DNA from: an uncultured Bacteroidota bacterium
GTDB taxonomy: Bacteria > Bacteroidota > Bacteroidia > Chitinophagales > LD1
Assembly: GCA_903919075.1 (NCBI GenBank)
Contig: CAIXGR010000026.1
Location: 1-42,669, forward strand
Length of the DNA: 42,669 bases
Reading direction: 5' to 3'
The translations under genes and the position numbers were made by a program. Of this stretch, positions 3,580 to 31,622 are shown in pieces. Every line of letters begins with the position of its first letter. The first letter of the stretch is position 1. Below the pieces are notes generated by a model that was not told the origin of the DNA, did not search any database, and saw only the letters and a program-made list of their open reading frames with translations.

Positions 3580-6500
3580 TTATTTTAAAGCCTTCTTGGT
3601 TAATTCAATTGGTGTTAAAGGAACGCCCGTTGTTTCTGCTGTTATCTTGGCAAAATCACCCGCCGCCTTATCAAACTTACCTTTCGCTACTTCCGAAAAC
3701 CCTTGCGCCAATTCATTTGTCACCTCTAAAATAGGTAAGTCTACGCCATATCCAAATGCAGGGCTTTGATATTTATTGATAACCGCCTCTGCAACTGGTG
3801 AAAATATCGGTACGCTCTTGGTAATATTTCTAAGTCCGTCAAAAAACAATTTATCCTTATCTTTTTTATCATTACCGCTTGCGGGCCTTGCTGCGTCAAT
3901 AGCCGTTAACATTAAAGTATTCAGCACAAACACGTTTGCAATAGCTTTAGCCGCACCTACTTTAGCCTTTGCGCTTTCGGGGTTGTGCATGTAGTCAATA
4001 ACGTGGCTCATTACGTTATTCATATTCACAAAACCCTGCCCGCCGTATAAACTTAATGCCCTTGTTAATGCGTTGGTGTCTTTTCTGAATGAAGGCCCGT
4101 TAAACGTATCAATACTCGGCTGTGTGGCTAATGTAACCTTCTCGTAAATATCACCTACTGCTTTCCAGTAAGCATCGCCCTTTAATTCGGGTTGCGTTGC
4201 GTCTATTTTAGCCTTTGCCGATTCCCAATAAGCCTTTTGCACCATTCTGTGCGCCATCAACATAGGTTCGGTTGCTTTAGAAAGGTCTACCACTTTATCG
4301 GTATTGGGTATATTAATTTTACCCATTTCCTTGCTTAGTTCGGCATAATCTGTTATGCCGCTTTGCAAGCGCATATTGGCCATATCGTTGTGCTGCATCA
4401 TTTCCCGTTCAACTGCATCATACGTACGTAATTGCATCGGGTTAAATGATTTCAGTAAGTTACCCAAATCGGCAACCATTTTAGGCACTTGCGGTAACAG
4501 ATATTTCGATTCAATTTCACTCGTTGCTAAAAATACGGCACCAATTTCTTTAGGTGGTATAAATGGATTTAAACCCAATACTGCGGTGCTAAAGGTAGCG
4601 TAAAACTTCTTTTCGCGCTCACCCATTTCTCCTATCACTCCTTCAAAGCGTGTCGGGTCTTCTGCATGTGCTTTTTGTCTGTTCCACCACTCAATATCAT
4701 CCTTGCTTACATGCCCCTCTAAGCCGTTCATTATAGCGTCCATATTGCGTATAACAGGCGAATATGCTGCGTATTTAGAAGAAGAATTGATGTAGGTCTG
4801 TTGTGTTATGTCGGAAGATAAAACAAGATAGTTGTTACCTTCGGGTGCGGGTACGCGATATTTTGCGCTCCTAAAATCGTCAATATTCTTCTGTTCTTTT
4901 TGATATGAACGCAAGTCGTTGGTGTCACCGTGTATAAGCGGGTAAAACTTTTCAAGCGGGTTTAACTTAATACCGTTTTGCATATAAAATGCGTTATCAA
5001 TAAACGGGTGTATAAATTCAGCCGCCTGTTGCCATCCGTTATTTTGTTCGCCAAATTCCTTTTGTGCAAACTCTCTTATCTTGCCAAACGCCTCACTGGT
5101 TATTTTCACATCGGTTGTGCCACGCACTCCTTCAATAGCAGGAAACCTAAAGGATTGCACACCCTTTTTAAGTTCATCTATTCTGCCTGCATCGCTTTGT
5201 ATCTCATGGGTTAACTCCTCGATACGGTCTTTTATTTCAGCCTTTTGTTTCGGTTTAAGGTTAGCCGTGTCCTGTTTGCTTAAAGCATCTAATTCGGCTT
5301 GCTTAGCGGGCAATTCAGCCGATAATCTTTCGGCACTGCGTTCATTCTGAAAGTAGCTTTTATTCACATCGGCCTGCCTTAATGTAAGGTAAATGTGGTT
5401 TAACTCTTTCGGGCTAACTTGCAAGCCACCCGCTACCAAATCTTTTCCTGCTATTTTATTTAAGTCAACAGGTTTGGTCTTTTCAAATGCTTTTGCGTTC
5501 TCGTAATCTCCCCGCTTTTCGTAATCCTTTTTATTAAAGGCCAAATCTTCTGCGGTCTGCTTTATTCTAAACGCTTTGCCTGCTGCCTGTGATGCCGCCT
5601 TTAATCCTGCGTTTATCAATCCGTCACTTGTTCCTGTCAACCATTTCCCAAAGCCTGTTACACCCGAAGTAGCGCGAACATATTTGCCCACCAGTGGTAT
5701 CAGGTTCTTTAAAACAGGTGTTTCGCTATGTGCCTCTGCAAACTTATCAAAAGCAGGAAATCTATTAGCGTGTTCCGATTGAACGGTTTTTTGCACTTCT
5801 TCTTTTGGTATAAAAGTATTGGCCGTATCAATTACACCCCCTGCCGTTTTTTTGATATAGTCGGCCTGCGTTTTAAACTGCATTACATCAGTAAAGAAAC
5901 GTTTGGCTTCTTTTTGCGAAGGCGTTAAATCTGTTTCGGGTATATCAAACAACTTTTCTTCACCATTCAGGTCTTTTAATATAGCCTTTAGCGTAGGTAT
6001 AGCCTTTTCGCTTTTCAGGTCTTTACTAAACATTTCCATGCGTAACTGAAAAGCCTTTTTATTCTCTTTTCCCGCCTCGGTATACAACGTTTCGCCTATC
6101 TTGTCAATATAATCTCCAATAGCACCGCGCAACACATCAACACCTCGCTGTATAGTTCCCTTACTCCATTTTGTGCCTACGGGATTAGTGGCTAATCCAT
6201 ATTTTCCGTTTGCGGTATGTAGTTCTTTTGTTGCGTTTTTAATTGCTTCAATATCTTTCGATTCATTCGCAACTTTTAGTTTCTCTTTTGCGGCATCAAC
6301 ATCTGCTTTTAACTGTGCAACATCTGCATCTTTTGCAAAGTCGGACATTACACTTTCCTTCTTCCAAACGCCCTTTGCCTTTAATGTTGAAATTAACGCA
6401 CTACGGGTTTCGCTGATATGATTAAAGTTGTTTTCTTCTGCAATGTTTTCAGACTTTGTGTTTTTCGCCATTTCCTTATCTAAAAATTCATGGTCGCTTG

Positions 6501-29445: not shown

Positions 29446-29459
29446 TCATAAAAGAGGTA

Positions 29460-29514
29460 ACACGCATGTTTTGCTTCATGGAAACGAAAGTAATGTTTTT
29501 TTTAGAATACCAAA
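29460..29514 (-). promoter_or_regulatory. Scaffold/capsid operon promoter with ATGCGTGT leader element
   Basis: Minus strand: TTTG (29511-29514), an 18-bp spacer, then TACTTTCG (29485-29492), a good Bacteroidota promoter. The transcript should start near 29480. ATGCGTGT (29460-29467) lies in the leader, 14 bases before the GTG start at 29445. This is the best -33/-7 pair among the four late units. Confidence 0.7.
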
Positions 29515-29559
29515 TTTATTTTTTCAGTAGTAATTAAGGTGCCGATATTTTGAGCAACT

Positions 29560-29880
29560 TTATTGCTATTGTACTTTATTCTCTATCAGTTACTACTTAA
29601 AATCAAACTCCAAGTGGTGAGTTCGGTTGGCGGGTGTGCATAGTGCGTTTATCCCAATGTTTTAAATTGGTTGTCCCGCACTATACGTTATACTTTTAGT
29701 TCCAGTGCGGAGCCGTCCAGCTAACGAATGTGGTATTGATACTGCTAATAGTCAATACTTCAAATCTACTGTCAGGCTTAATTAGCTGCCTCCCATGTCT
29801 TACGGCTCATTCTTTAGGCCACCGTTGCGCTGTGCATGAATCCCCCAGTAACGCTATGATATAATCGCTGATGTCTGTTG
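29560..29880. other. Gene-free segment with stable hairpins (second possible RNA)
   Basis: No ORF of note. ATAGTGCG (29640-29647) pairs with CGCACTAT (29677-29684), and inside it CCAAT (29654-29658) pairs with ATTGG (29666-29670), giving a nested 8+5 bp hairpin. Further on GTATTGA and TCAATAC form a 7-bp stem (about 29734-29759). CAAATCTACTGTCA (29762-29775), whose complement contains the -7-like box TAGATTTG, recurs exactly at 39822-39835. It could start a leftward RNA through the hairpins, but no -33 box is seen here. Confidence 0.4.
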
Positions 29881-29897
29881 CCCGTCCGACTATAAAA

Positions 29898-30081
29898 TAA
29901 AAAACCCCGTAGTAGAGGATACGAGGATTTTTTATAGGGCTTTAGTTTCCCTTAACCCATCCCACTACCTCTACGCAGTTGGATGAATCTTTTTATGTCT
30001 TTTATTGAAACCTACCTTCTGGCGACAAACCGACCATAGTGGTAGGAGTTTCAAAAACCATCACAGGGCGAACCGTTTTAG
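29898..30081 (-). ncRNA. Probable ~180-nt structured noncoding RNA with complementary loops
   Basis: A leftward unit with its own promoter (30087-30116) and a terminator (29905-29926 plus U-tract) but no credible ORF. Predicted parts in order: hairpin 1, where GGTAGG (30041-30046) and TTTCAA (30049-30054) pair with TTGAAACCTACC (30005-30016), 12 bp with a 2-base bulge and a 24-base loop; hairpin 2, stem 29958-29966 with 29977-29985 (8 of 9 pairs) and a 10-base loop; then the terminator hairpin with an 8-base loop. The loop of hairpin 2 contains GUAGAGG, the exact complement of CCUCUAC in the terminator loop, so a 7-bp kissing contact or antiterminator is possible. I do not recognise a known RNA family; 6S-like size but different layout. 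Confidence 0.55.
29899..29932. terminator. Bidirectional intrinsic terminator
   Basis: CCCCGTA (29905-29911) pairs with TACGAGG (29920-29926, one G-U pair in the RNA) with an 8-base loop. T-runs follow in both directions: TTTTTTATTTT on the minus strand and TTTTTT on the plus strand. It ends the candidate ncRNA on the minus strand. Confidence 0.7.
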
Positions 30082-30086
30082 TATCA

Positions 30087-30116
30087 CAAATATACAAACC
30101 TTTTTGATTCTACAAA
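30087..30116 (-). promoter_or_regulatory. Bacteroidota-type promoter of the candidate ncRNA
   Basis: Minus strand TTTG (30113-30116), 18-bp spacer, TATATTTG (30087-30094): both boxes match the consensus fully. It lies just beyond the terminator of the 98-residue gene, so it would start a separate transcript at about 30080. Confidence 0.65.
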
Positions 30117-30148
30117 ATAAAAAAGCCCTGCATTACTGCAAGGCTTCC
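30112..30148 (-). terminator. Intrinsic terminator after the 98-residue gene
   Basis: On the minus strand AAGCCTTGCA (30137-30146) pairs with TGCAGGGCTT (30123-30132) around a 4-base loop (10 bp, two G-U), followed by TTTTTTATTTT. A classical rho-independent terminator 20 bp beyond the stop codon. Confidence 0.8.
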
Positions 30149-30167
30149 TTATTCAATAAACCAAATG

Positions 30168-30527: not shown

Positions 30528-31622
30528 TTAGTAATGGTTAAACGCTCTTATGCGATAGCCATATACGCATATCCATACCTTACCGCTAGGGTTCTTAGCT
30601 GATACTGAATAAGGAGATAATAAAGCCGCCTTAGTAGGTAAGCCCGTATCTCCATCATTGGCAGGCACTCCTGTTCCCGCTGCCGAGAATATGTTACCGG
30701 TAGTCTTTTTAACTTTCCGTATCGCGTTATTGTATTGGTCTGCAATAAATATATTCGCGCTATCGTCCACTGCTACATCAACAGGCAGGTTAAGCTGTGC
30801 CGACAATGCACTGCCACCGTTACCACTAAAGCCTGCTGTGTGGTTGCCTGCAATGGTTACTATCTTACCGTTAGCTTTTGTTACTTTTCTTATAACGTTG
30901 TTATTACGGTCTGCTATGTAAATATTGCCGCTATCATCTGCCGCTATACCGCAAGGCTGATTAAATGTTGCGCTTGTAGCTACTCCCGTATCACCGGTAT
31001 ATCCTGTTGAGCCGTTACCCGCTATCGTTGTAATAACACCCGATGTTTTGAATACCTTGCGTATTCTAACATTCTGTTGGTCAGTAATATATAAGTTGCT
31101 GCTGTCGTCTAAGCACAGTCCGTATGCTGTTCCTAGTTTTGCACTTGTAGCCGCTGCGCCATCGCCGCTAAAACCGTTAACGCCGGTGCCTGCATAAGTC
31201 TGTATAATACCATTCTTAGCAAATATTTTACGCACTCTAAAGTTTAACTTATCGGCTATATACACGTTACCGCTGTCATCTGCGGCTATTGCCTGCGGCC
31301 CGTTAAATATGGCCGTAGTAGCCAAACCGCCATCACCTGCGTAACCTACATTAGTGCTGTTGGTTATGTAGCCACCTATAACACTCATAACGCCCGTGGT
31401 ATGGTTCACCTTGTTTATGGTGTTTGTCATGGCATCAATGTAAAAAACATCAAGGCTATCATTTACGGTTACGGCAATCGGGTAACATTCGGCTTGTGTT
31501 GCAGGTATGCCTACGTAAGGCAGTTGCCCGTAAAATCCGTTACCAACCACCGTGTTTATTTGTGGCTGTGCAATAGCCGTTACACAGGCTAAAGTAAAAA
31601 GTGAAATCAGTAAGTTTTTCAT
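30528..31622 (-). CDS. Secreted NHL-repeat beta-propeller protein
   Basis: 364 residues. The signal peptide is MKNLLISLFTLACVTAIAQ|P (cleavage after IAQ). The mature protein consists of about six NHL-type repeats. Each has a DDSGN-x-YIAD segment, then N-x-x-IRKV, then an IAGN/AGTG-x-GFSGDG turn and an ATSAxxNxP link (clearest at about residues 110-330), folding into a propeller. NHL propellers bind proteins, glycans or RNA. Secreted ones of this type are common in Bacteroidota hosts and unusual in a phage virion cassette. It lies between the portal gene and the 98-residue gene, 34 bp beyond the portal stop, and ends at its own terminator. Likely a host-derived accessory gene that alters the cell surface, or an adhesin. 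Function unknown. Confidence 0.8.
   Translation of the reverse strand: MKNLLISLFTLACVTAIAQPQINTVVGNGFYGQLPYVGIPATQAECYPIAVTVNDSLDVFYIDAMTNTINKVNHTTGVMSVIGGYITNSTNVGYAGDGGLATTAIFNGPQAIAADDSGNVYIADKLNFRVRKIFAKNGIIQTYAGTGVNGFSGDGAAATSAKLGTAYGLCLDDSSNLYITDQQNVRIRKVFKTSGVITTIAGNGSTGYTGDTGVATSATFNQPCGIAADDSGNIYIADRNNNVIRKVTKANGKIVTIAGNHTAGFSGNGGSALSAQLNLPVDVAVDDSANIFIADQYNNAIRKVKKTTGNIFSAAGTGVPANDGDTGLPTKAALLSPYSVSAKNPSGKVWICVYGYRIRAFNHY

Follow-up and report, generated by a model that had tools for sequence, protein, structure and literature searches.

Does a stretch without recognisable genes in a distantly crAss-like phage make a folded RNA with its own start and stop signals, and if so, to what kind of RNA is it related? 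The window analysed here is one whole contig of 42,669 bases, for which a Bacteroidota host is presumed from the promoter type and the phage's relatives. Its portal is 22.6% identical to that of Cacepaovirus cr131_1, its terminase is 22.6% identical to that of Azobacteroides phage ProJPt-Bp1, and its head protein matches phrog_11589 (E-value 4.5e-6). The gap in question (29446-30167) lies between a 98-aa gene and the 349-aa gene in front of the head protein. For the minus strand of this gap an initial annotation had proposed a structured phage RNA with a consensus promoter, about 180 nt without an ORF, an intrinsic terminator and two hairpin loops complementary over 7 nt. It had suggested that a contact inside the terminator loop could make termination conditional, and it had recognised no RNA family. 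The observation is confirmed and its coordinates are right, while its interpretation is supported in part, as the annotation stopped at the terminator and missed a divergent match to a known but unexplained RNA family that follows within a few nt.

The promoter, leader and terminator of the gap

The promoter is one of three exact matches to TTTG-N16-20-TANNTTTG, the Bacteroidota-type pattern, on the minus strand of the window, with none on the plus strand. No sigma-70-type promoter was found on the minus strand of the gap. No minus-strand ORF of 60 aa or more lies in 29446-30167, although two of 27 and 31 aa do. The terminator (29926-29905 plus TTTTTT) is one of two terminator-like sites in the gap (7 pairs each, with 4 and 3 G-C pairs), where shuffled sequences give a mean of 0.7 (sd 0.8). 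Folding of the minus strand of 29890-30085, a check which had been suggested in advance, gave -57.5 kcal/mol with a z-score of -3.18 (-3.13 in a separate run), and 1 of 200 shuffles was as good. The loops GUAGAGG and CCUCUAC are exact complements, while 0 of 400 dinucleotide shuffles had two hairpin loops, closing pair included, complementary over 7 nt or more. As a terminator-like hairpin also follows the gene upstream, the unit seems to stand on its own. The features identified are listed in Table 1, where R1 is the leader and its terminator and R2 the RNA that follows.

Table 1. Predicted features of the gap and the basis for each (all on the minus strand)
Coordinates	Feature	Basis
30119..30146	Terminator-like hairpin plus T-run after the preceding 98-aa gene	Read directly; similar palindrome at 3755-3774
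30087..30116	Bacteroidota-type promoter TTTG-18-TATATTTG; transcription start expected near 30081	Pattern scan
29898..30081	R1, structured RNA of about 180 nt, no ORF above 31 aa on this strand	ORF scan, fold and shuffles
30005..30054	Hairpin A of R1 (UUGAAACUCCUACC...GGUAGGUUUCAA)	Fold
29958..29989	Hairpin B of R1, its loop carrying GUAGAGG	Fold
29968..29974	Loop strand a, GUAGAGG	Read directly; shuffles
29905..29933	R1 terminator stem-loop (b, loop, b')	Terminator scan and fold
29912..29918	Terminator-loop strand a', CCUCUAC, abutting the 3' arm	Read directly
29899..29904	U-run of the R1 terminator	Terminator scan
29791..29896	R2, divergent RF02932-like RNA, mainly its 5' domain	36.5 bits, E-value 2e-5 to 3.9e-5; descriptor hit
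29860..29894	R2 helix 1, UAUAGUCG (29894-29887) with CGAUUAUA (29867-29860)	7 of 7 pairs of family helix 1
29845..29871	R2 pseudoknot 1, UCAG (29871-29868) with CUGG (29848-29845)	4 of 4 pairs
29827..29854	R2 helix 2, GCGUU (29854-29850) with AGCGC (29831-29827)	4 of 4 family pairs
29792..29840	R2 pseudoknot 2, UUCAUG (29840-29835) with CAUGGG (29797-29792)	5 of 5 family pairs; shuffle p 0.15 on its own
29781..29810	R2 helix 3, AUGAGC (29810-29805) with GCUAAU (29786-29781)	5 of 6 family pairs, one G.A mismatch; sequence differs from the family core
29604..29790	Possible 3' part of R2, up to a weaker terminator-like hairpin (29625-29604); tentative	Folds and terminator scan; not alignable to the family by eye

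The element is not a tRNA or tmRNA, and no Rfam family reaches its gathering score in the window. Weak Rfam matches over R1, including AdoCbl (E-value 0.16) and Thr leader (E-value 0.63), were taken as chance, two of them after inspection of their alignments. A template repeat as of a diversity-generating retroelement was also considered, but the window has no long repeat pair; a reverse transcriptase was not searched for. The 364-aa protein between the portal and the gap (30528-31622, minus strand) has repeats of the type DSGNIYIADRN, by eye like NHL repeats, and two of the three copies of one DNA repeat of the window fall in it. A long hairpin (CGUAUAGUGCGG...CGCACUAUGC; 29700-29640, minus strand) lies between R2 and the next gene, and may belong to R2 or be separate.

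Conservation of the two loops in related genomes was a criterion by which the initial annotation was to stand or fall, but it could not be applied because no near relative was found. DNA matches to named phages were short and weak, the head protein had no match in named phages, and searches of viral contigs and genome contigs with the head protein or terminase gave distant relatives but no near ones. Two pattern searches for near relatives of the window variant gave no hit. Four loci from a third did not look like the RNA, though they were not checked for ORFs, and a model built from viral members of the family discussed below gave nothing at those places. A related phage contig (locus L204, 17934-18836; contig 4 of genome G085) has a long gap at the same place in front of its head-protein genes, with strong palindromes and a direct duplication of about 90 nt, but no RF02932 match.

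An RF02932-like RNA and the RF02932 family in phages

With a permissive Rfam search, the stretch directly after the terminator matches RF02932 (Betaproteobacteria-1 RNA, function unknown) across the model, positions 1-120, with a local end over the core. The score is 36.5 bits, with an E-value of 3.4e-5 for 731 bases and 2e-5 for 421 bases. This is below the gathering cut-off of 49.4 bits, and R2 is therefore termed RF02932-like and not a member. In whole genomes searched with strict filters, the window's own genome was the only one with a match among 149 near relatives (E-value up to 0.001) and 395 genomes of the class (E-value up to 0.005), the two draws overlapping.

Of 349 genomes of the order of Paraburkholderia, 6 matched and 4 passed the cut-off. 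Six copies are taken as real (L070-L075, chromosomal loci in Burkholderiales genomes), and have Hma, PLD, caspase-like, PDC-S06 or DnaE2/ImuB-type genes nearby; three of them are in one genome, one of these being cut on its 5' side where a dnaE2-like ORF ends. The two weak hits left (L066/L076 and L067/L077) lie inside long ORFs and were taken as chance.

First pattern scans for the family gave no member by eye, nor by Rfam in nine of the fourteen loci obtained from two of them. A pattern from the family core, GGNNGCGAAGYTAGCNCC, had at least 120 hits in IMG/VR viral contigs, and 93 of 120 also carry the next conserved block and are taken as members. Membership of these contigs rests on this second motif, with Rfam run on seven, all of which match RF02932 at 75 to 101 bits. 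On one viral contig with such an RNA (L091) there is also a C4 antisense RNA and its targets (1540-1745). Two named phage genomes carry an RF02932-like RNA unannotated, after the primase gene of Acidovorax phage AP1 (L198, 8928-9106) and under small annotated ORFs in MW202545 (L199, 5947-6118), scoring 105 and 116 bits respectively with the viral model.

An alignment of 36 of 46 selected viral members supports six helices, two of them named pseudoknots here, with 89.1% of cells paired, 190 double-change cells against 64 in shuffles, and 36-49% paired when partners are slid. Ten loci were left out by choice (L078, L080, L081, L084, L092, L103, L119, L142, L159, and L192), some because they looked odd. 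On swapping partners among 44 sequences, pseudoknot 2 scored 12.9 for own against 10.8 for swapped partners (sd 0.3), while pseudoknot 1 was weaker, with 38 of 44 own against a mean of 29 and a maximum of 37.

In many of these loci a T-run stands directly before the family RNA. Of 71 non-redundant upstream regions of 270 nt, 38 have a terminator with a long stem, against 1 of 231 random pieces of the same loci, and 33 lack one. In 30 non-redundant loci the order is upstream strand a, stem strand b, a loop that often holds a hairpin, strand a', stem strand b' and T-run, with a' abutting b' in 17 of the 30. Pairing of a with a' is specific as a group, with a mean score of 16.9 for own pairs against 11.2 for swapped ones (sd 0.5, maximum 12.7 of 500); 23 of 38 have 7 bp or more, against a mean of 6.5 and a maximum of 13 when swapped. 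Taken singly, only 15 of 30 loci reach a p of 0.05 or less by loop shuffling. Sigma-70 promoter scores of 10 or more of 12 occur upstream in 8 of 29 regions, against 2.8% of 580 controls. Four loci with this element (L079, L106, L132, and L138) were among the seven searched with Rfam, and no match to it appeared at an E-value of 0.001. A subclass (L096, L099, L115, L127, L133, L135, L136, and L172) has a conserved insert of 60-70 nt (GGAACGCAGACCAAAGTTAGCTGCG...GGGACTCAGAACCCAGCC) between the R1 terminator and R2, about 75-160 nt before the core motif, which is possibly a third structured element. By eye no clear promoter lies in it, which argues for read-through.

With regard to neighbouring genes, the nearest upstream ORF of 110 aa or more matches a primase family in at least 19 of 50 loci, while no downstream family recurs in more than 3 of 47. 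Flanking genes are mostly in the same direction (36 of 50 upstream, 36 of 47 downstream). A packaging-RNA role, suggested by the place among virion genes in the window, was set aside because of this frequency of primases elsewhere; one locus (L079) lies directly before terminase genes.

As to whether the window belongs with these loci, a descriptor of helix 1, pseudoknot 1, helix 2 and GGYGGC finds 48 of 86 family members and one place in the window, this one. It finds none in 1.98 Mb of non-member sequence and none in 5.12 Mb of Markov-shuffled window, both strands counted. It should be mentioned that the descriptor was written after seeing the window, with tolerances from the family. In a hand alignment, 26 of 29 family pairs can form in order, with helix 1, pseudoknot 1 and helix 2 in register. 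Pseudoknot 2, between the helix-2 loop and the strand before GAACGGCUG, has its pairs in the right place, but its shuffle value allows no decision on whether it is a true feature of R2. The most conserved core of the family (GGYGGCGAAGYUAGCRCC, with helix 3 GYUAGC/GCUGRC, and GGCUGRCG) is absent as sequence, a replacement helix 3 takes its place, and helix 5 forms 1 of 3 pairs. The model built from the 36 viral members scores the window at 10.4 bits (E-value 0.17), no better than chance. A hit of 10.6 bits in a related phage contig lies inside an ORF, and the proteins flanking the gap in that contig showed no clear similarity to those of the window. A scan of 296 genomes of the phylum with this model returned nothing, also missing the window's own genome, and three crAss-like phage records gave no RF02932 match. 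Homology of R2 to the family is considered likely. For R1, a shared plan and place are claimed and homology is left open. What is conserved in the other phages is an analogue of the two loops, an upstream strand that pairs specifically with the terminator loop but usually does not lie in a hairpin loop.

Possible roles of the two RNAs

The explanation preferred, though only somewhat more likely than not, is that the segment is the first half of a two-RNA module of a kind found in many phages, in which a promoter-driven, loop-contacted and conditional terminator (R1) gates a structured RNA (R2). What the sequence itself demonstrates is the promoter, the fold, the loop complementarity, the terminator and the RF02932-like 5' domain, together with a similar order in dozens of other phage contigs. 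That R1 and R2 can be one transcript, and that the contact of the two loops decides whether polymerase stops or reads through, is inferred. In this view, polymerase starting at about 30081 makes R1; if the loops pair, the terminator is weakened or delayed and R2 is made, and if not, a short RNA ends at about 29899. Read-through was not assayed, no transcript is known, and the signal is unknown. In the other phages the linker from a to b is 10 nt or less in 21 of 30 loci. By reasoning and not computation, this is too short for the contact and the full stem together, so the two would exclude each other and the contact could act as an antiterminator. In the window the contact would be a 7-bp loop-loop (kissing) interaction, which could coexist with the hairpin, and its effect could go either way. 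The function of R2 is unknown, perhaps tied to DNA replication because it often follows primase genes in other phages, but in the window the neighbours are virion genes and this link does not hold there. Conditional termination, as suggested in the initial annotation, is also the mechanism favoured here, but it is untested.

Of the alternatives, all considered unlikely, the one that survives best is that R1 is a stand-alone small RNA of 100-190 nt acting in trans, with R2 made separately. Promoter and terminator frame R1, and the terminator stems in other phages are very long (16-25 bp), more than an attenuator would appear to need. However, in the 30 loci above the T-run stands directly before R2, leaving little room for a promoter of R2, and by eye none is clear in the longer spacers.

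Less likely still, R1 and R2 may be one large RNA in which the terminator-like hairpin is a structural domain and the complementary loops join separate copies, as in phi29 packaging RNA or the GOLLD and ROOL cages. The apparent steric incompatibility of contact strand and full stem within one molecule in the other phages makes pairing between molecules possible, and kissing loops join chains in phage-borne GOLLD and ROOL (PMC12286853). Nevertheless, the 33 upstream regions without such a terminator speak against it, and the module is much shorter than GOLLD. U-runs follow the stems, but as the search required them this is not independent evidence.

A leader terminator read through under control of a phage protein, as with the lambda late leader and Q, with the loop contact incidental, is doubtful. 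It shares the plan of promoter, leader under 200 nt and terminator, and flanking genes elsewhere are mostly in the same direction, but the strand-loop pairing is specific to each phage and a conserved RNA follows; no antiterminator gene was searched for. Chance, meaning an ordinary terminator and leader beside a sequence that only resembles RF02932, could draw on the missing core, the low viral-model score, the lack of near relatives, the weak value for pseudoknot 2 and the late writing of the descriptor, but is opposed by the empty descriptor controls, the RF02932 E-value, the loop shuffles and the order similar to that in other phages.

A broader reading is possible but tentative, namely that many tailed phages, from phages of Proteobacteria to a crAss-like phage of a presumed Bacteroidota host, carry a small RNA operon. 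In it, a new RNA class (R1, without an Rfam match in the four loci tested) would gate, by its strand-to-terminator-loop contact, production of a second, highly conserved double-pseudoknot RNA (R2). R2 would then be a core phage RNA working with the replication machinery or on a universal host target. RF02932 is a curated family without a known function, and the paper behind its Rfam entry dates from 2017. The present results place it in many phages, often after primase genes, lengthen it, give it two covarying pseudoknots and attach an upstream promoter-terminator element in about half of the viral cases examined. This makes its function testable in phages and extends the plan, in a divergent form, to a crAss-like phage. 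If the loop-gated terminator is real, it would be a phage attenuator controlling a noncoding RNA and not a gene.

Comparison with known systems

No description of the two-part module was found in literature searches, which covered open-licence papers only; nothing was obtained for RF02932, only irrelevant papers for Betaproteobacteria-1, and other searches returned PMC2864571, PMC9114089, and PMC8383071. Absence from print is claimed for these searches alone. GOLLD and ROOL are structured phage RNAs of unknown function with kissing loops (PMC12286853), but are much larger, and neither gave an Rfam match in the window. Transcription attenuators and the lambda late leader with Q have a short leader ending at a terminator that can be read through, while here there is no coding leader, no known antiterminator protein, and a structured RNA follows. 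The put RNA of HK022 is a nascent phage RNA that controls termination (PMC9378689), acting on pausing and termination of early genes, whereas the contact proposed here is with the local terminator loop.

Betaproteobacteria-1 RNA (RF02932) shares with R2 helix 1, the CAG/CUG pseudoknot, helix 2 with ACUGNGGGA, GGUGGC, and their order and spacing. R2 differs in scoring below the gathering cut-off, in lacking GGCGAAGYUAGC/GGCUGRCG, in lying in a crAss-like contig among virion genes, and in being preceded by a promoter-terminator unit that the Rfam model does not include. The upstream element of RF02932 RNAs in IMG/VR contigs, described here, has in common with R1 a promoter just upstream, a strand complementary to the terminator loop, and a terminator with the RF02932 RNA directly after its U-run; in the window a' likewise abuts the 3' arm with a gap of 0. 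In the other phages, however, strand a usually lies near the 5' end, a few nt before a stem of 16-25 bp with a loop of 19-68 nt, while in the longer R1 of the window it lies about 107 nt from the expected start and in a hairpin loop, the stem is shorter and the terminator loop is 8 nt.
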